NCBI RefSeq assembly: GCF_001412655.1
Contig: NZ_CP012996.1
Location: forward strand, 1,426,001 to 1,490,000
DNA length: 64,000 bases
Direction: 5' to 3'
Source of the DNA: Pedobacter sp. PACM 27299
GTDB lineage: Bacteria > Bacteroidota > Bacteroidia > Sphingobacteriales > Sphingobacteriaceae
Of the stretch, positions 5,502 to 57,839 are shown one piece after another (position 1 is the stretch's first letter; every line of letters starts with the position of its first letter). The translations under genes were made by a program, and so were the position numbers. A model generated the notes under the pieces. The model saw nothing but the letters and a program-made list of their open reading frames with translations. It was not told where the DNA came from and made no database searches.

Positions 5502-7184
5502 TTATTCCTGATCAGCAATTAATACACCGGAAACATTCCAGGAGCTGAAGCTGGTGCCTTCAGGTTTTCCAAGAGGAATTGCAACTTGCAGGGTATGTTT
5601 TCCCGGACTTAAGTTCTCCAATGGGATTTCTACAGGAAGGGTTAGTGTTCCAGGGCACCAGTTTGAACGACTTAAATCTGAAGAAGAAAGACCATTTCCG
5701 AAATTACCAGAAGAAGGGTTGCTGAAACGGTACGTTGCACAATCTTCTCTCCAGGGAATAAAGTGATAAACCCTTTTCCCATCTACAAAAAGTTCATTCA
5801 GTTTCGGAACAAATTCATCGCCTTTACCCCAGCCGCCATGGCCGGTTGTGAGGTACCTTAAACGAAGGTTTTTCAAGCCTTGCGGTACATCAATTGTGAC
5901 TGTTAAGGAATCTTTTTCGAACATAGTTCCGTATTCTTGTCCAGCCATCTCCATTAGGTTGGTGGTATTAAATACAGGCATGAGGTAAGATTTTTTTTCT
6001 TTCTCTTTTTCGCCCTCGTATCCTGGATAATAATTTAGATTCAAACTCACCGTGTGTCCACCTTTATCGTAGTTTCCGATAAACACACCAATCCAAACTT
6101 CGCCTTGCAATTTTGGTGCAAGCAGGGTAATGTCTTGTTTGTAAATGACAGAATCTGCCCAGTTGTATCCTTTGATTTTTGCCTGTTCATTGAAATGTTT
6201 TACCCCAAAGGAGGTGAAGAAACGCATCAGTTCCAGCGGTGGTAGATAATTATCTGTCGCAATTACCCCTTGATATTTTTTGCCATTACGGGCACTGTAC
6301 ACTGGTAAAGTCTTTAAGCCATTTTGCAAAGCATCCAGGAAAGAAATAGACTTATCTACCGGAATCATAAATACGGAACCTGTTCTGTCATAAGCATCAC
6401 CATTAGAATTTTGGATCAGTTCAGCAAAAACGGATTGCCCCGCTTTTACGGTTGGAAGTTTTACTTTTTTAAGAATTACCGTACCGCCAGAAAAATGATA
6501 AGTGGCATTCAACTGATCAGCTGCAGGGTTCTCTATTTTATTTCCAAAACTGATCTTTTCCTTATTGAAGATACTGATCGTTTGGTAACGACTTTCAATC
6601 ATTTGACGCTGATAAGCGGCTTCGTCAAGCAGACTGCCCCATTGTTTTGGCCAGGCAAGTTCCTCGGCTTTTACTTTGCGGTAATCCATCTTTTTCGCGT
6701 AAGTTTCTGTATTGCCATTGCGGATGGTTTTTAAAATAAGACCAAGTCCCGGTGCAATAGTCAGGTCGGGCGTTCCCTTAATTTTCAAGTCGTTTGTGTA
6801 CCATATTTCAATGGTATTGGAACGGATAAACACCTTTGCTTTTTTGCAGGGGATACCCATGATGGTATCTATACCTGCAATTAGTTCTGCCGATACATAT
6901 TCAGAGAACGGTTTTTTTAAGGTGTATAGATTTCCGTTGCTATTCAGTACCTGATAGGTAGCTGCTTCCGAAAATTGCAGAAATTGTTCTTGTTTTGCCT
7001 GGCGTTCCTGACCGGAGATTCTGGCTTGACTTCCTTTGATAAAAAGTTTTTTTTCTCCGCCAACTTCTTTGCCGTTACTGCGGGAACCATAAGTGATGAC
7101 TGCTTCTGTGGCTTGTGTGTTTTTTTGTGCGAATAAAGCAGTGCTGATGAATAGCATTGCGATGCTAAATAAATGGGTCTTCAT
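5502..7184 (-). CDS. Secreted PNGase F-type peptide-N-glycosidase with extra N-terminal domain
   Basis: A 560-residue exported protein (signal peptide MKTHLFSIAMLFISTALFAQ). The C-terminal half closely follows PNGase F: a first jelly-roll with ELMRFFTSFGVKHFNE and QDITLLAPKLQGEVWIGVFI, then the second with TTGHGGWGKGDEF, IPWREDCATYRF and SSSDLSRSNWCPG. Such enzymes cleave the N-glycan-asparagine bond and release whole glycans from glycoproteins. About 190 extra N-terminal residues contain TIAPGLGLIL, reminiscent of GLPGLI-family proteins and of the N-terminal bowl domain of type II PNGase F. The catalytic residues cannot be placed with certainty by eye. The gene stands alone, bounded by tRNA genes upstream and the suf operon downstream. 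A role in feeding on host or plant glycoproteins is inferred. Confidence 0.85.
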   Translation of the reverse strand: MKTHLFSIAMLFISTALFAQKNTQATEAVITYGSRSNGKEVGGEKKLFIKGSQARISGQERQAKQEQFLQFSEAATYQVLNSNGNLYTLKKPFSEYVSAELIAGIDTIMGIPCKKAKVFIRSNTIEIWYTNDLKIKGTPDLTIAPGLGLILKTIRNGNTETYAKKMDYRKVKAEELAWPKQWGSLLDEAAYQRQMIESRYQTISIFNKEKISFGNKIENPAADQLNATYHFSGGTVILKKVKLPTVKAGQSVFAELIQNSNGDAYDRTGSVFMIPVDKSISFLDALQNGLKTLPVYSARNGKKYQGVIATDNYLPPLELMRFFTSFGVKHFNEQAKIKGYNWADSVIYKQDITLLAPKLQGEVWIGVFIGNYDKGGHTVSLNLNYYPGYEGEKEKEKKSYLMPVFNTTNLMEMAGQEYGTMFEKDSLTVTIDVPQGLKNLRLRYLTTGHGGWGKGDEFVPKLNELFVDGKRVYHFIPWREDCATYRFSNPSSGNFGNGLSSSDLSRSNWCPGTLTLPVEIPLENLSPGKHTLQVAIPLGKPEGTSFSSWNVSGVLIADQE

Positions 7185-31096: not shown

Positions 31097-32287
31097 TTAT
31101 GCCAATACTTTAGTTACTAAATCTGCAGCATCTTTCAATGCAATTGCAGAATATACTTTTAATCCTGACTCATCGATTAACTGTTTCGCTTCAGCGGCAT
31201 TAGTACCTTGTAAACGACAGATGATTGGTACAGGAATATCACCGATTTCTTTATAAGCATCAATTACACCTTGAGCAACACGGTCGCAACGAACGATACC
31301 ACCAAAGATGTTAATTAAGATCGCTTTCACATTTGGATCCTTAAGGATAATGTTGAAACCTGCTTTTACAGTTTGTGCATTCGCAGTTCCACCTACATCC
31401 AGGAAGTTAGCTGGCTCACCACCTGCAATTTTGATGATGTCCATGGTCGCCATTGCTAAACCAGCACCGTTCACCATACAGCCAACGTTACCATCTAATT
31501 TCACATAGTTTAAGTTAGACTCACTTGCTTCCACATCTGTTGGATCTTCTTCCAATTTATCACGCATTGCTGCATAATCAGGATGACGGAATAAAGCGTT
31601 CTCATCTAAGTCAACTTTAGCATCAACAGCGATGATTTTGTCATCAGAAGTTTTTAATACCGGGTTAATCTCAAACATCGCAGAGTCGGTAGCGTCATAA
31701 GCTTTGTAAAGCGCAGTGATAAATTTCACCATGTCTTTATGAGCAGCACCACTTAATCCTAGATTAAAGGCAATTTTACGAGCCTGGAATCCTTGAAGAC
31801 CAACTTTAGGGTCAATCTCTTCTTTGAATATTAAATGAGGAGTTTTTTCTGCAACCTCTTCAATGTCCATTCCACCTTCGGTAGAATACATAATGATGTT
31901 AGTTCCAGTTGAACGGTTTAAAAGCACGCTCACATAGAATTCTTTAGTTTCAGATGCTCCAGGATAATAAACATCCTGTGCCACTAAAATCTTGTTCACT
32001 TTCTTTCCTTCCGGGCCAGTTTGAGGAGTAACCAATTGCATACCTAAAATGTCGGTTGCTCTTTGTGCTACTTCTTCCAGGTTTTTCGCAAGCTTTACGC
32101 CACCGCCTTTACCTCTTCCGCCTGCATGGATTTGTGCTTTAATCACAACCCAATCAGAATTGTAGTCAGTTTTCATTTTTTTAGCCGCTTCTACAGCCTG
32201 CTCAACCGTGTGGGCAACGACGCCTTCTTGTACGGCTACACCAAAACTTTTAAGTATTTCTTTACCTTGATATTCGTGGATATTCAT
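31097..32287 (-). CDS. sucC: Succinyl-CoA synthetase beta subunit (ADP-forming)
   Basis: The beta subunit of the TCA-cycle enzyme that interconverts succinyl-CoA and succinate with ATP formation. An ATP-grasp domain starts the protein ([35 protein letters not shown]) and the CoA-ligase domain follows ([29 protein letters not shown]). I place the start at the ATG at 32287 (396 residues): it gives the family-standard MNIHEYQG, and the -7 box at 32306-32313 overlaps the seven-codon-longer alternative. sucD is not adjacent. Confidence 0.95.
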
Positions 32288-51801: not shown

Positions 51802-52029
51802 ATGAAAAGAACAAGTATAATGCTCGTCATTCTGGGGATTGTCATGGCTATCGCCGGTATACTAATGATTCAAGATTTAAACTATGTAAACACCGTTGAT
51901 GGACATACCAGACCAATGTATATCCAGGGAATCAGAACTTTCCCCTGGCTCGCTTTTCTGGGTGGTTTATTTATAGTCGTTGGTGTATTTTTTTACATTA
52001 CTGATCTCCGGAAAGATCCTAAAGATTAA
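51802..52029 (+). CDS. Small two-helix membrane protein
   Basis: A 75-residue protein with hydrophobic segments at about 6-22 and 48-66, joined by a polar loop (LNYVNTVDGHTRPMYIQGIRTF). I do not recognise the family. ATG at 51802 is preferred to the GTG one codon earlier. Its last 11 bases overlap the 3' end of the convergent DUF417 gene. Confidence 0.6.
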   Translation: MKRTSIMLVILGIVMAIAGILMIQDLNYVNTVDGHTRPMYIQGIRTFPWLAFLGGLFIVVGVFFYITDLRKDPKD

Positions 52030-52606
52030 CTGGCTGCTTATTTCTGATCAGGTATTGTCTGGCAGAATCACATAAGGCAGTAAAAGCCCCTGCCATCATG
52101 ATCAGGTCTTTTATGACCAGTCTGCCGCGTGCGGAAAGGAGTGGAAATCCATGGTTAGGATCTCCAAGATCCGGTACCCAGGATTCTTTTGTGCTGATTA
52201 AAAAGGATAGGGTAACTACCGACATGAGGATCACCAATGCTGCTCCAGCCATCCCAATCCCTGGATGATAATGGTTTAATAATAAGGTGATGCCCATTAA
52301 AACGAGTACCGTACCTAATCCATAAGAAAACAGATAGGTGTGGTTGGCGCTATGCCAGGCGATTTTTTCGGGATTTGCTTCTCCTTCTTTCTGCATGTAG
52401 GGTTTATATCCGGTTGGATCTGCATAAAAGAAAGACATCAGTGCTGAATTGGCCACAAATGGCACAATCCCCTCTGCTTCATAGTGATAAACTTTTAAAC
52501 CGCCAATCCAAATCAGGACGATGGCAATTGCAATTCGAATTAAACGGATACTCAGGGAAGATAAACCCGCAAGGGTTTGAAGGAGGGTAGTAAATTGACC
52601 AGACAT
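52019..52606 (-). CDS. DUF417 (YkgB/RclC-like) membrane protein
   Basis: A 195-residue protein with about four transmembrane helices and family signatures IAIVLIWIGGLKVYHYEAEGIVPFVANSALMSFFY and GFPLLSARGRLVIKDLIMMAGA. YkgB-family proteins include E. coli RclC, which helps resist reactive chlorine. It lies 66 bp downstream of an AraC-type regulator on the same strand, a setting that recalls RclR-RclC and suggests stress induction by that regulator; this is inference. Confidence 0.85.
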   Translation of the reverse strand: MSGQFTTLLQTLAGLSSLSIRLIRIAIAIVLIWIGGLKVYHYEAEGIVPFVANSALMSFFYADPTGYKPYMQKEGEANPEKIAWHSANHTYLFSYGLGTVLVLMGITLLLNHYHPGIGMAGAALVILMSVVTLSFLISTKESWVPDLGDPNHGFPLLSARGRLVIKDLIMMAGAFTALCDSARQYLIRNKQPVNL

Positions 52607-52672
52607 AGCATATATATTGAGCTGGTAAAGGTCGGGATAGTATAAGGATCAGACCATGGACTATACCTCCGA

Positions 52673-53539
52673 TTAGATGGACAAATCAGCCACTATTGAA
52701 ATTCCGGTCTTTTCCCTGAAGATTTGCGGTGATACCCCTGTCATCTTTTTGAAGAAGCGGCTGAAATAGTATTCATCTTCAAAATTAAGTGCGTAAGCAA
52801 CTTCTTTAATGCTTTTTCTGGTCAGATGCAGCAGTTTTTTAGCTTCCAGTATCAGGCGTTCCTGAATCAGGATGGTTGGTGTTTTACCGAAATACCTTTT
52901 ACAGCGTTTGCTAAAGGTATTGGGGTTGAGGTGGAGCAGCTCTGCATAATCTGCAGGTTTACGAAGGCTCAGGAAGTTCTCTTCCAATGCGCTTTGAAAG
53001 GCTTCCATCAATTCTTCTTTTACCGGCTGTATTGCTGCTGGTTTTGATTTTAATTTAATGCGGCTGGATTGTGCCAGAAACAACTGCAGGTATGCCGTGA
53101 GTACTACCTCATTGGGCTGTTCCTGGTTTAGCTCTGCTTGTAGCTGCCCTAACAAATGATCAAATGATTGTGCTTCCTCTTGGTTTAAATTGATGGATGG
53201 CTCAAGAAAAATGTTGTTAAACAAGAGACCATTGCAGGCTACTTCCGCTTTATGGTAGGCGATACAGTAAAAATCACCATGAAACTGCAGCATCATCACT
53301 TTCGTTTTTGGAATATCTTTAAAATAGATGGTCTGAAAAGGGGTGGCAAAAAAGATGATTGGTCCTTCAAAAGAGAAGTTGCCGAAATCAGCCTGAAAAG
53401 AACCCTTCCCTTTTGGAATAAACAGAATGGTATAAACCGGATAGGATACAGGCTCGCCAAGCTGCTTCGCATCAACCTGCTGAAGTGATAACAAAGGGGC
53501 GCCTGATACTGAAATGATTTTTTTTTCTGTATATTTCAA
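52673..53539 (-). CDS. AraC family transcriptional regulator
   Basis: A 288-residue regulator with a cupin-like N-terminal domain (VYTILFIPKGKGSFQADFGNFSFEGPIIFFATPFQTIYF) and a double HTH AraC domain at about residues 185-285 (LHLNPNTFSKRCKRYFGKTPTILIQERLILEAKKLLHLTRKSIKEVAYALNFEDEYYFSRFFKKMTGVSPQIFR). It lies directly upstream of the DUF417 gene and probably controls it. I see no cysteine pair resembling the RclR sensor, so the signal may differ. Confidence 0.9.
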   Translation of the reverse strand: MKYTEKKIISVSGAPLLSLQQVDAKQLGEPVSYPVYTILFIPKGKGSFQADFGNFSFEGPIIFFATPFQTIYFKDIPKTKVMMLQFHGDFYCIAYHKAEVACNGLLFNNIFLEPSINLNQEEAQSFDHLLGQLQAELNQEQPNEVVLTAYLQLFLAQSSRIKLKSKPAAIQPVKEELMEAFQSALEENFLSLRKPADYAELLHLNPNTFSKRCKRYFGKTPTILIQERLILEAKKLLHLTRKSIKEVAYALNFEDEYYFSRFFKKMTGVSPQIFREKTGISIVADLSI

Positions 53540-53724: not shown

Positions 53725-54366
53725 ATGAATTCCTCAAATATCAGTCATTATATAAATACGCTTTTTCCTCAGTTTGAACCGGCTTTAAAAAAGACGTTAA
53801 TTGAGCAGGTTACGATCAAATCGGTTAAAGCTGGAGAACACCTGATGCAAACCGGGCAATATTTTAGGTCTACAGTTTTAATTGTAGAAGGACGGGTGAA
53901 GCTGTATCGGGAAGGCACCGATGGGAATGAGTTTTTTATGTATTACCTGCAGCCAGGTGATGCCTGTGCGTTATCGATGATTTGCGCTGCAAAACAGGAG
54001 TCCAGCGGGATTATGGGGAAAGCAATTGAAGACAGTACCATTTTAATGGTGCCTATTGCCTTGATGGATGAGCTGATGAAGCAATTTCCAAGCTGGTATT
54101 ATTTTGTAATGGAAACTTACCGTTCTAGATTTGAAGAGCTGCTGGAGGTGATTGATGGCATCGCTTTTAAAGGGCTGGACGAAAGGTTAAAGTTTTACTT
54201 AGAAAAACAACAGCAGCAAGTCCAAAGCAATGAGCTTCATCTGACTCATCAGGAGGTGGCCAGCGACCTGAATTCTTCGAGAGAGGTGATCTCCCGATTA
54301 CTGAAGAAGATGGAGCAAAGGGGTGAAATCAAGTTGTACCGAAATTATATTGAAATGATAAAATAA
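53725..54366 (+). CDS. Crp/Fnr family regulator with two cysteines
   Basis: A 213-residue Crp/Fnr protein: cyclic-nucleotide-type sensor barrel (residues ~15-130), long helix and winged HTH with recognition helix SSREVISRLLKKME (184-197). R186, E187 and R191 line up with R180, E181, R185 of E. coli CRP, the residues that read GTGA. The only cysteines are C81 and C87 (GDACALSMIC). I take the ATG at 53725; the longer frame from TTG 53656 adds 23 residues not typical of the family. It heads a sulfur gene cluster, and two GTGA-N6-TCAC sites lie downstream before its likely targets. Confidence 0.88.
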   Translation: MNSSNISHYINTLFPQFEPALKKTLIEQVTIKSVKAGEHLMQTGQYFRSTVLIVEGRVKLYREGTDGNEFFMYYLQPGDACALSMICAAKQESSGIMGKAIEDSTILMVPIALMDELMKQFPSWYYFVMETYRSRFEELLEVIDGIAFKGLDERLKFYLEKQQQQVQSNELHLTHQEVASDLNSSREVISRLLKKMEQRGEIKLYRNYIEMIK

Positions 54367-54372
54367 TACTGC

Positions 54373-54386
54373 GTGACTTTTGTCAC
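54373..54386. promoter_or_regulatory. GTGA-N6-TCAC operator before the TauE/SafE gene
   Basis: The perfect palindrome GTGACTTTTGTCAC. Its start is 36 bp before the -7 box at 54409, so its centre lies near -41 of the expected transcription start, the place of a class II Crp/Fnr activator site. Confidence 0.65.
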
Positions 54387-54408
54387 CGTAAGTCAGGTGC
54401 AGAATCTA

Positions 54409-54416
54409 TAGCTTTG
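54409..54416 (+). promoter_or_regulatory. -7 box of the TauE/SafE gene
   Basis: TAGCTTTG matches TAnnTTTG, 17 nt before the ATG at 54434. No -33 TTG is present, as expected for an activator-dependent promoter. Confidence 0.55.
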
Positions 54417-54433
54417 TTCTAAAGGAATAAAAT

Positions 54434-55228
54434 ATGGAAGTTATTGCATACCTGGCCTCAGCGCTGATTGGTATTTCATTAGGTTTAGTAGGCGGCGGCG
54501 GGTCGATTTTGACGGTGCCTGTATTGGTGTATTTATTTGGCGTTTCTCCATTGCTGGCCACTTCATACTCCTTGTTTATTGTGGGGAGTACGAGTTTGGT
54601 GGGTGCCTTCCAGAATTATAGAAATGGCCATGTACAGGTAAAAACAGCATTATTGTTTGGATTGAGCTCCGTGACTACGGTATGGCTGACCAGAAAGTTT
54701 TTAATTCCAGTGATCCCGCATCAAATTGCTTCTTTTGAGCATTTTCAATTGACCGAAAGGATGTTGATGATGGTACTTTTTGCCATACTGATGGTGATTG
54801 CTGCAATTGCCATGATCAGAAGTGGGAAGGATAATACTGCGGAATCTGTTGCTGTAAAAAGTCCAAACCTTGCGAAATTGACTTTTTTTGGCATTGGAAT
54901 CGGCTTAACCACTGGTTTGCTGGGTGCCGGAGGAGGATTTTTACTCATTCCTACATTGGTGGTATTATTGGGATTGCCTATGAAAGAAGCGATCGGTACT
55001 TCTCTGTTCATCATCGCACTCAATTCCTTAATTGGGTTTTCCGGAGATTTTGGTCATTTCGAAATCAATTGGGAATTTTTATTAAAGATTACACTGATTG
55101 CTATTGCCGGGATTTTTATAGGAGGTAATATCAGCAGGAAGGTAGATAGCAGGAAGCTGAAAATTGGCTTTGGATGGTTTGTGCTGATCATGGGGCTGTA
55201 TATCCTGACTAAAGAGATTTTTCATTAA
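54434..55228 (+). CDS. TauE/SafE family sulfite/organosulfur exporter
   Basis: A 264-residue membrane protein with eight or so helices in two inverted halves, each beginning with the repeat seen as GISLGLVGGGGSILTVPVLVYLFG and GIGLTTGLLGAGGGFLLIPTLVVLLG. TauE/SafE proteins export sulfite, sulfoacetate or related anions. It lies 67 bp after the Crp/Fnr gene and 60 bp before the YeeE genes; with the MBL-rhodanese it forms a sulfur-handling group. Confidence 0.9.
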   Translation: MEVIAYLASALIGISLGLVGGGGSILTVPVLVYLFGVSPLLATSYSLFIVGSTSLVGAFQNYRNGHVQVKTALLFGLSSVTTVWLTRKFLIPVIPHQIASFEHFQLTERMLMMVLFAILMVIAAIAMIRSGKDNTAESVAVKSPNLAKLTFFGIGIGLTTGLLGAGGGFLLIPTLVVLLGLPMKEAIGTSLFIIALNSLIGFSGDFGHFEINWEFLLKITLIAIAGIFIGGNISRKVDSRKLKIGFGWFVLIMGLYILTKEIFH

Positions 55229-55288
55229 AAAGTATTGCAGTCAACATTTTAAATGGTGTCTACTGAAACGTAAATAATTAACAGAAAT

Positions 55289-55855
55289 ATGAATATGATA
55301 ATAGAGTTTATAAAACAACCCTGGCCTTGGTACTTTTCGGGTTTGATGATTGTGGTAGTGATGTTGTTACTCAATTTTTGGGGTAAGTCCTTTGGATTTT
55401 CTTCTAATCTAAGGACAATCTGCAGTATGGCTGGAGCAGGTAAAAAAGTGAAATTCTTTGATTTCAACTGGAAAGCGCAGCGCTGGAATCTGATGTTTTT
55501 GATAGGTGCTATCATTGGAGGCTGGATTTCTAAAGAATTCCTGGCCAATCCCAATGCGCTGGATTTATCAGCAGCTACCATAAAAGATCTTCAGGCGATG
55601 GGCATTCATTTTAACGGAGGTCTAAATCCAGATGAGCTGTTTTCTTTAGAGGCATTAGCTTCGCCGAAAACTTGGATTTTATTGCTTTCAGGAGGGATTT
55701 TGGTTGGTTTCGGTTCCAGATATGCTGGTGGCTGTACTTCTGGTCATGCGATTTCAGGCTTATCAAACCTACAGCTGCCTTCTTTGATTGCCGTCATTGG
55801 TTTTTTTATCGGCGGATTATTGATGACCTGGCTGATCCTGCCTTCCCTGATTTAA
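55289..55855 (+). CDS. YeeE/YedE family sulfur transporter, half 1
   Basis: A 188-residue membrane protein with about four helices and the motif SRYAGGCTSGHAISG, whose cysteine is residue 149. YeeE/YedE proteins take up thiosulfate through conserved cysteines, and in many Bacteroidota the transporter is split into two proteins as here. The partner half is encoded at 55927. Confidence 0.88.
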   Translation: MNMIIEFIKQPWPWYFSGLMIVVVMLLLNFWGKSFGFSSNLRTICSMAGAGKKVKFFDFNWKAQRWNLMFLIGAIIGGWISKEFLANPNALDLSAATIKDLQAMGIHFNGGLNPDELFSLEALASPKTWILLLSGGILVGFGSRYAGGCTSGHAISGLSNLQLPSLIAVIGFFIGGLLMTWLILPSLI

Positions 55856-55926
55856 GGAATCATCAGTAAAGCCAATTTGATAGATAGTTTAGTAAAATAA
55901 CGATTGTAAATTATTAAAGAAACAAC

Positions 55927-56340
55927 ATGAAAACATTAAAATATATCCTTGCCGGCATCCTTTTCGGCATCATCATGAGTAAATCTGAAGCCGTTTCCTG
56001 GTTTCGAATCCAGGAAATGTTCCGTTTTCAATCATTTCATATGTATGGAATCATTGGAACGGCAGTGGTGCTTGGTGTGATTGCCGTGTTCCTGATTAAA
56101 AAGTTCCATCTGAAAGATTCTGAAAATCAGCCGATTGTTTTTCCTGATAAAGACAGGCAGTATAAAAAATACATCATTGGAGGAACAATTTTTGGTCTGG
56201 GCTGGGCCCTAACCGGTGCCTGTCCGGGCCCGATGTTTGTAAACCTTGGTTATGGTTATTTAACCATGGTCATTGTCATTTTTGGCGCTTTACTCGGAAC
56301 TTACCTTTATGGATTGTTAAAAAATAAATTGCCGCATTAA
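55927..56340 (+). CDS. YeeE/YedE family sulfur transporter, half 2 (DUF6691-type)
   Basis: A 137-residue membrane protein with about four hydrophobic segments and the second cysteine motif LTGACPGPMFVNLGYG. It complements half 1, 71 bp upstream. Together they resemble one full-length YeeE. Confidence 0.88.
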   Translation: MKTLKYILAGILFGIIMSKSEAVSWFRIQEMFRFQSFHMYGIIGTAVVLGVIAVFLIKKFHLKDSENQPIVFPDKDRQYKKYIIGGTIFGLGWALTGACPGPMFVNLGYGYLTMVIVIFGALLGTYLYGLLKNKLPH

Positions 56341-56383
56341 AAGAAACATAAAAAAGCAGTATTGACCAGGTACATGCTGCTAT

Positions 56384-56397
56384 GTGATATAAGTCAC
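56384..56397. promoter_or_regulatory. GTGA-N6-TCAC operator before the MBL-rhodanese gene
   Basis: GTGATATAAGTCAC has the same half-sites and spacing as 54373-54386. It starts exactly 36 bp before the likely -7 box GAAATTTG (56420-56427), the same distance as at the TauE/SafE gene. Confidence 0.65.
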
Positions 56398-56419
56398 AAA
56401 ACAACTGCTTTTTTATACT

Positions 56420-56427
56420 GAAATTTG
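56420..56427 (+). promoter_or_regulatory. Likely -7 box of the MBL-rhodanese gene
   Basis: GAAATTTG differs from TAnnTTTG in the first base. It lies 56 nt before the ATG at 56484. Confidence 0.45.
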
Positions 56428-56483
56428 TATATGATCAACGCTAATAAGGCATAGATTAAGTTTTTAATTTAAATAAATAAAAG

Positions 56484-57839
56484 ATGATTATAGAACAGTT
56501 TAAAGATGAGTTTTTAGCCCATTATAGCTATGCAATATTGAGCGAATGTGAGCAAAAAATCGTATTGATTGATCCTGCGCGTAATCCTGAACCGTATTAT
56601 GAATTTGCAAAGAAATTTGAGGCTCAGATTATTGGGGTAATAGAAACACATCCTCATGCCGATTTTGTGAGCAGCCACCTGGAAATTCATGAAACTACCG
56701 GTGCTAAAATATATGCACATAGCTTAACTGGTGTCGCTTATCCGGTGCATCATTTTGATGAAGCAGAGACGCTTAGCTTTGGTAAAATAAAACTGACCAG
56801 TATTCATACGCCAGGTCATTCTCCAGATAGTATTTCGGTATTGCTGGAACATGATGGCAAAGCTACAGCGGTTTTTACTGGTGATACCTTGTTTATCGGT
56901 GATTGCGGCAGACCGGATTTAAGAGAATCGGCAGGCAACTTACAAGCGAAAAGAGAAAAACTCGCCCTGCAAATGTACCACTCACTAAGGGATAAATTGA
57001 TGGTGTTAGGAGATGAGGTAATCGTATACCCTGCTCATGGTTCGGGTACATTATGCGGTAAGGCCTTAAGTACGGCAAATTCGAGCACTATCGGAGCGGA
57101 AAAAATCAGCAACTGGTCACTGCAGGAAATGACAGTGGATGATTTTATTAAAGAGCTGACCACCGATCAGCCATTTATTCCTAAATATTTTGGTTATGAT
57201 GTAGACCTGAACAGAAAAGGTGCAGCTCCTTTTAAGCCCTTAGTAGATCAGGTTGAGCTCATCAAACAGCCGGAACTGGAAGAAATTAATGCCACCATTA
57301 TCGTGGTAGATGCCCGTCCCGAAGCTGAATTTAAAGCTGGTCATTTTCCTGGAGCAGTTAATATTGTATATGGTAAAAAGTTCGAAACCTGGCTGGGCAG
57401 TATCATCAGACCCGGAGAACACTTCTATTTAACAGCTTCAAGTCCGGCACATTTAAAGGAATTAATTGAGCGGACTGCAAGTATCGGATATGAAGGCTTT
57501 ATTGAAGCCGCTTTTGTAACGCATTCCGGTGATGTATTGATGCCTGTATTACCTTTGGAATGCTTTATCGCCAATCCTGAAGAGTTTACCATTATCGATG
57601 TCAGGAATGAAAATGAAGTGAAAAAGAAAAAGGTATTCGCCAATTCGACAAACATTCCTTTAGGAGAGCTTAGAGAAAGGATCAAAGAGGTTCCTGCTGA
57701 TAAACCGATTGTGGTGCATTGCGCAGGTGGCAGCAGAAGTGCTGCTGGAAGTAGTATTATTGCTGCTGAACTTGGCTCGAGGACCCCTGTTTACGATCTT
57801 GGTACAGTGGTTAAAGATTTCGCAAAAGCAGAGGATTAA
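56484..57839 (+). CDS. MBL-pseudorhodanese-rhodanese fusion (persulfide dioxygenase-like)
   Basis: A 451-residue protein. Residues 1-235 are an ETHE1-like metallo-beta-lactamase domain (ETHPHADFVSSH with H56, H58, D60; PGHSPDSISV; FTGDTLFIGDCGRPDL). A first rhodanese domain (about 250-355; VVDARPEAEFKAGHFPGAVNI) lacks an active-site cysteine, having YLTASSPAH where the loop should be. A second (360-451) has the loop HCAGGSRS with C413. This order matches CstB-type persulfide dioxygenases/sulfur transferases, which oxidise persulfides to sulfite or thiosulfate. It completes the sulfur cluster: exporter, importer, converting enzyme. Confidence 0.9.
   Translation: MIIEQFKDEFLAHYSYAILSECEQKIVLIDPARNPEPYYEFAKKFEAQIIGVIETHPHADFVSSHLEIHETTGAKIYAHSLTGVAYPVHHFDEAETLSFGKIKLTSIHTPGHSPDSISVLLEHDGKATAVFTGDTLFIGDCGRPDLRESAGNLQAKREKLALQMYHSLRDKLMVLGDEVIVYPAHGSGTLCGKALSTANSSTIGAEKISNWSLQEMTVDDFIKELTTDQPFIPKYFGYDVDLNRKGAAPFKPLVDQVELIKQPELEEINATIIVVDARPEAEFKAGHFPGAVNIVYGKKFETWLGSIIRPGEHFYLTASSPAHLKELIERTASIGYEGFIEAAFVTHSGDVLMPVLPLECFIANPEEFTIIDVRNENEVKKKKVFANSTNIPLGELRERIKEVPADKPIVVHCAGGSRSAAGSSIIAAELGSRTPVYDLGTVVKDFAKAED

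Follow-up and report, generated by a model that had tools for sequence, protein, structure and literature searches.

A probable local Crp/Fnr regulon with class II operator geometry at a reactive-sulfur gene cluster of Pedobacter sp. PACM 27299

We analysed a gene cluster at positions 53725-57839 of a 64,000-nucleotide stretch of the Pedobacter sp. PACM 27299 genome (contig NZ_CP012996.1; the whole stretch is called the window below). On one strand (+), the cluster encodes a Crp/Fnr regulator, a TauE/SafE exporter, two YeeE/YedE halves and a protein with metallo-beta-lactamase-fold (MBL) and rhodanese domains. Comparison with its relatives indicates that the cluster very probably forms a conserved local regulon, in which a Crp/Fnr protein acts from class II sites on genes for reactive sulfur. 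We consider it likely that a dimer of the regulator sits at both operators as a class II activator: it would bind GTGAC-N4-GTCAC-type sites centred at -41.5 in a pair of sigma-A promoters of the TAnnTTTG type, recruit RNA polymerase and switch on tauE, probably with the two downstream yeeE halves, and the MBL-rhodanese gene. Induction would come from reactive sulfur (sulfide, persulfide, polysulfide or thiosulfate), and the encoded proteins would handle persulfide sulfur by oxidation or transfer, with sulfite or thiosulfate being exported. The sites, their spacing, their conservation, the specificity pairing and the gene families are read directly from the sequence, and the features of the cluster are as follows.

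53725..54366, +: Crp/Fnr-family regulator, 213 aa (Pfam cNMP_binding 42 bits, HTH_Crp_2 36.8, Crp 24, each above its cut-off)
53965..53985, +: part of the cNMP-type domain between Cys81 and Cys87, two thiols that are hypothetical candidates for sensing
54274..54303, +: recognition-helix segment SSREVISRLL, residues 184-193 (R186, E187, R191)
54373..54386, +: operator 1, GTGACTTTTGTCAC
54409..54416, +: -7 box TAGCTTTG of the tauE promoter; the predicted +1 is the A at 54421
54434..55228, +: TauE/SafE-family exporter (PF01925 148.2 bits, cut-off 32.6)
55289..55855, +: YeeE/YedE half transporter, whose best stretch is the C-terminal end of Sulf_transp (PF04143 62 bits)
55927..56340, +: second YeeE/YedE half (DUF6691; N-terminal part of Sulf_transp; PF04143 53.1, PF20398 38.3 bits)
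56384..56397, +: operator 2, GTGATATAAGTCAC
56420..56427, +: -7-type box GAAATTTG of the MBL-rhodanese promoter
56484..57839, +: MBL-fold and rhodanese domains (two matched stretches), CstB-type, persulfide dioxygenase/sulfurtransferase-like (Lactamase_B, Rhodanese; 3tp9, 3r2u)

A first-pass annotation, made from the letters of the window, had pointed to GTGA-N6-TCAC in front of tauE and the MBL-rhodanese gene, and GTGACTTTTGTCAC and GTGATATAAGTCAC are indeed exact matches. The 36-bp spacing that it described is equally accurate: TAGCTTTG (54409) and GAAATTTG (56420) each begin 36 bp after the start of their own site, GAAATTTG deviating from TAnnTTTG at its first base. Three matches to the motif occur in the window against 0.56 expected, a number reached in 3 of 100 shuffles; the third, at 31716-31729, is not among the results of the motif-plus-spacing search of the genome. 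Across this genome, a single contig of 6.147 Mb, the bare motif is near background (66 matches, and 51 for a reversed control). When TTTG at the right distance (+/-1) is added, 4 sites are found and none for the control, and two of the four are the sulfur-cluster sites. The search for further sites that the annotation had proposed returned two beyond the cluster, neither of which resembles a promoter: one lies within an 857-codon open frame, and the other has no ATG-started open reading frame of more than 80 codons starting within 400 bp. A sigma-70 promoter scan (18 against 12.9 in shuffles) and a terminator scan (6 against 3.6) were not used as evidence. This genome alone is only suggestive, and the case is strong because relatives carry the same sites.

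A full-length ortholog of the regulator is present in 18 of the 78 other same-genus genomes searched, at 58-87% identity. Together with a second, broken copy from one genome and the locus described here, these make up 20 same-genus loci. In every one of the 20, the motif lies upstream of tauE and a second site before an MBL-rhodanese start, the MBL-rhodanese frame being only a fragment in two of them (72 codons in L041, 78 in L044). TTTG lies at offset 40 or 41 from the site start, 40 corresponding to the 36-bp spacing, for 37 of the 40 sites, the exceptions being the second sites of L041, L042 and L047. Motif and spacing, which the annotation had named as the feature to look for in orthologous clusters, are thus not absent there. 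The strict motif with its spacing is found in 17/19 same-genus genomes with an ortholog and in 7/60 without one, counts that are uncorrected for kinship.

The geometry recurs in the wider regulator family. From 110 loci, some of them duplicates, we collected 132 distinct sequences upstream of tauE, the MBL-rhodanese gene and the first yeeE half with an operator score of 7 or 8 out of 8. Of these, 113 have a TTTG beginning at offset 40 and 9 have one beginning at 41, the other positions from 33 to 49 being empty. Among the 113 offset-40 promoters the distance to the ATG is variable (49-128), while 96% carry an A at -11 and 79% an A at the expected +1, neither feature having been used for selection. 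Only 30% of these 113 boxes retain the T at -12.

As a control, we counted an operator score of at least 7 together with TTTG at 40 or 41 on the sense strand, on the antisense strand and in shuffled sequences. For tauE, the combination occurs in 65/66 sense sequences, 0/66 antisense and 2/3300 shuffles; for the MBL-rhodanese gene the figures are 45/63, 3 and 1/3150, and for the first yeeE half 13/56, 1 and 0/2800. The second yeeE half gave 0/55 sense, 0 antisense and 1/2750 shuffles in the same test. In five loci the sulfur genes run opposite in strand to the regulator, and a site scoring at least 6 still precedes 7 of the 11 genes tested; the 4 without a site are all yeeE halves. Autoregulation as a rule was rejected, as a fitting site precedes the regulator itself in only 2/110 loci. 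In a sample of the phylum, 41 of 395 genomes (this one included) match the regulator at 1e-45 or better, and its relatives adjoin tauE or MBL-rhodanese genes in several families of the class. We examined 29 of the 42 phylum matches other than this genome's own, in a scan that allowed offsets 40 and 41 only; in other families, 23 of the 25 scored promoters have a site scoring at least 6, each at offset 40.

Work on CRP has established -41.5 as the class II position. In Flavobacterium johnsoniae promoters (PMC6847099), the -7 element covers positions -12 through -5 and transcription begins 4-5 nt beyond it, T at -12 is nearly invariant, and the -33 element is far less evident than the -7 element. 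On that numbering the operator centre falls at -41.5, which supports the class II activator position proposed in the annotation, the start site itself being predicted. The annotation had also read the lack of a -33 TTG as a sign of activator dependence. This turns out to be uninformative, because the -33 element is so much weaker a feature in F. johnsoniae; the low frequency of T at -12 is the better hint, suggesting weak promoters that need help.

The regulator itself can be matched to its sites through the recognition helix, in which the annotated R186, E187 and R191 were confirmed (numbering from the ATG at 53725). Earlier genetics reportedly exists for Glu181 of E. coli CRP. In that protein Arg180 contacts G2 and the G4:C4 pair of TGTGA is read by Glu181 and Arg185 (PMC11253593). 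CprK has a Val at the place of FNR Glu209, and this Val is paired with T at the base that is C for FNR-like proteins (PMC2610375). We tabulated the residue at this position against the half-sites for 72 of the 110 loci (120 sites). Duplicate regulators were left out, as were those broken or shorter than 170 aa. A locus also had to offer a site on the regulator's strand that scored 7 or more and had TTTG at 39-42, a rule that removes poorly fitting promoters too; the five loci with opposite-strand sulfur genes are among those left out. The main Glu group (50 regulators) has two GTGA halves in 84/90 sites and one in 6/90. The 16 Val regulators, which form two separate groups on the tree, have no GTGA half in 23/24 sites (the left half being GTAAC) and one in 1/24; a single Ala regulator has one GTGA half. 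The pairing of Glu with GTGA and Val with GTAA is consistent and chemically expected, though not statistical proof, and it ties the adjacent regulator to the sites.

Several observations weigh against this picture. Ten of the 132 scored promoters have no TTTG at 39-42, and loci L036-L039 are >99% identical to one another, so that locus counts are inflated. Among the other-family promoters, 2/25 scored 4, and 3 further genes had no candidate. On the recognition side, all 5 sites of a small Glu clade (TTREV/TTPEV, 5 members) combine a GTAAC half with a GTCAC half and count one GTGA half each, and the Glu-type sites of other families mostly combine one GTGA with one GTAA half. The tree, a quick one that carries long-branch warnings, holds only two changes between Glu and non-Glu, likewise with that column omitted; the test of the pairing is not significant, and with only two events it cannot reach significance. 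Strict sites are also present in 7 genus genomes that have no ortholog. Finally, we infer from the DNA that the regulator binds the sites, that it activates and does not repress, how far the operon extends and that reactive sulfur is the inducer.

The sites might belong to another Crp/Fnr paralog, the adjacent regulator being a bystander. A first look at the genome search, with 21 candidates in this genome, would fit such a paralog, as would the strict sites in the 7 ortholog-free genomes and a relative (G056) in which a broken regulator stands by intact sites, though that genome has a second full regulator elsewhere. We nevertheless regard a bystander role as improbable: the sites track both the presence of the regulator (17/19 against 7/60) and its recognition residue, and the regulator's relatives stand beside the same sulfur genes in several families. 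Of the sites in the 7 ortholog-free genomes, with GTGAC-N4-GTCAC and TTTG at 40/41, one precedes a catalase gene (L059, position 1501), one a glyoxalase-family gene (L068) and one an L-PSP-family gene (L065), and two more precede genes that are glyoxalase-like by eye (L060, L070). They possibly mark a second Crp/Fnr regulon of the same architecture.

Alternatively, the regulator could be a repressor released by reactive sulfur. BigR and the staphylococcal cst regulator are repressors (PMC9774590, PMC7315123). Against this, the site keeps a fixed position at -41.5, upstream of the -7 box and not overlapping it, and the first base of the box is degraded (T in 30%). Class II activation fits this combination better than repression, and we judge a repressor unlikely here. 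That the spacing is a matter of chance or an alignment artefact of a few related genomes is scarcely credible: the motif is near background in this genome alone and four loci are near-identical, but the shuffle and antisense controls and the same offset in other families' loci argue strongly against it.

PF00027, PF13545 and PF00325 all score above cut-off, placing the regulator in the Crp/Fnr superfamily; its top-scoring solved relative is 3dv8 and its best-matching named relative is from Pedobacter polysacchareus (92% identity). CRP proper was rejected (45 bits against an equivalog cut-off of 266). In a by-eye ungapped alignment L83 and S93 occupy the places of E72 and R82, cyclic AMP (cAMP)-contacting residues of CRP, so by this alignment the cAMP contacts are not kept. 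FNR proper, which carries N-terminal Fe-S cysteines, was rejected as well (36.8 bits against 228), there being no cysteine ahead of C81 in the 213 aa. Cys81 is present in 192/192 aligned regulators, and Cys87 in 170/171 of the main Glu group (a group that here includes 120 database proteins), 0/5 of the small Glu clade and 8/16 of the Val regulators. Cys81 was rejected as a sulfur-specific mark, since it also occurs in relatives without the query sulfur genes in the stretch examined. A thiol (persulfide) switch at Cys81/Cys87 is possible, and we put it forward as a fair hypothesis only. A fuller version, which we hold tentatively and consider rather doubtful as a whole, would make the protein a Bacteroidota Crp/Fnr sensor of reactive sulfur: a Cys81-Cys87 di- or polysulfide bridge, near the place of the CRP nucleotide pocket, would yield the DNA-binding form, which would then activate a cst-like regulon from class II positions; in some relatives this regulon would take in sulfide and thiosulfate oxidation genes.

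The genes under the two promoters were compared with known sulfur proteins. TauE belongs to the sulfite exporter family at family level. The MBL-rhodanese protein (451 residues) aligns with 3tp9 over residues 2-428 (228.7 bits) and with 3r2u, staphylococcal CstB, over 1-426 (177.1 bits). The metal (THxHAD) and cysteine motifs are in register with both, through the segments THPHADF, CGK and the C-terminal HC...RS, and the MBL-then-rhodanese order is that of CstB-type proteins. For the persulfide-dioxygenase-like fusion named in the annotation, domains and aligned motifs hold up, and the functional label is one of homology only. Blh (NF040641) was rejected at 36.3 bits against an equivalog cut-off of 625, and the TsuA thiosulfate transporter (NF052577) at 41.7 and 24.7 bits for the YeeE halves against 400; the halves belong to Sulf_transp at family level. 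Elsewhere this genome has another MBL-rhodanese gene, with 35% identity to the one in the cluster (G000:C1:5672443-5673747, -, L052), and 78/79 same-genus genomes have an MBL-rhodanese match at 1e-40 or better.

The clusters of relatives add a match to the SQR model (220.4 bits, below the cut-off of 525), SoxB matches (307.6 and 240.2 bits, cut-off 550), a SoxA/TsdA-type cytochrome, DsrE, a single rhodanese and a YgaP-like membrane protein. Such extended clusters with SQR-like, SoxB-like and SoxA/TsdA-type genes occur at L042 8182-12499, L125 11863-15483 and L133 12478-15266. Operators also precede the YgaP-like gene (L042, L125), a rhodanese gene (L159) and a SoxB-like gene (L133). Taken together, the genes point to the handling of sulfide, persulfide and thiosulfate.

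Adjoining the sulfur cluster in the window, at 52019-53539 (-), are genes for an AraC-type regulator and an RclC-like membrane protein (253.6 bits, cut-off 275). This pair also lies beside the sulfur cluster in several relatives and is a possible reactive-chlorine neighbour. At L049 (the same place as L134; about 5895-6573), a regulator copy without its N-terminal part, in two overlapping pieces, abuts a partial RclC gene; both operators are intact there, and a full regulator is found elsewhere in that genome.

If a Crp/Fnr protein does this work in several families of the class, the known regulators of reactive sulfur would gain a further class, one with a local regulon of defined membership. 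It would also show cleanly how CRP-type class II architecture operates on a promoter as divergent as TAnnTTTG. Because Glu and Val occur naturally at the same position, the protein-DNA code could be tested by changing a single residue and a single base pair in each half-site. Known sulfur regulators include the ArsR-family proteins BigR and SqrR kin, the sigma-54 activator FisR (PMC9774590, PMC7315123) and the cst repressor. Among the matches listed, in a search that left subscription papers mostly outside, we recognised no publication on a Crp/Fnr regulator of this cluster. The activator architecture and the kind of gene set are each already known, and their pairing appears not to be described among those matches.

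The Staphylococcus aureus cst operon, comprising CstR, TauE, CstA, CstB and SQR, shares with our cluster TauE and an MBL-rhodanese protein. It is governed by the repressor CstR, of the CsoR type, whereas here we find a Crp/Fnr protein with class II sites, and yeeE halves in addition. The BigR-type yeeE-yedE-pdo2 operons of Acinetobacter and Serratia (PMC7315123) also combine paired YeeE/YedE with a persulfide dioxygenase and a local sulfur regulator, but there the regulator belongs to the ArsR family, represses, and carries a dithiol pair. Among Crp/Fnr proteins, the Val/T pairing of Desulfitobacterium CprK, set against the FNR-type C, matches the pairing of our Val and Glu groups (PMC2610375); CprK differs in sensing o-chlorophenol ligands and controlling halorespiration. 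Closest in architecture to the proposed regulon is E. coli CRP at class II promoters, with its centre at -41.5 and its Arg-Glu...Arg reading of GTGA halves (PMC11253593), from which the Pedobacter system differs in not keeping the cAMP contacts (by eye) and in its Bacteroidetes TAnnTTTG-type promoter.

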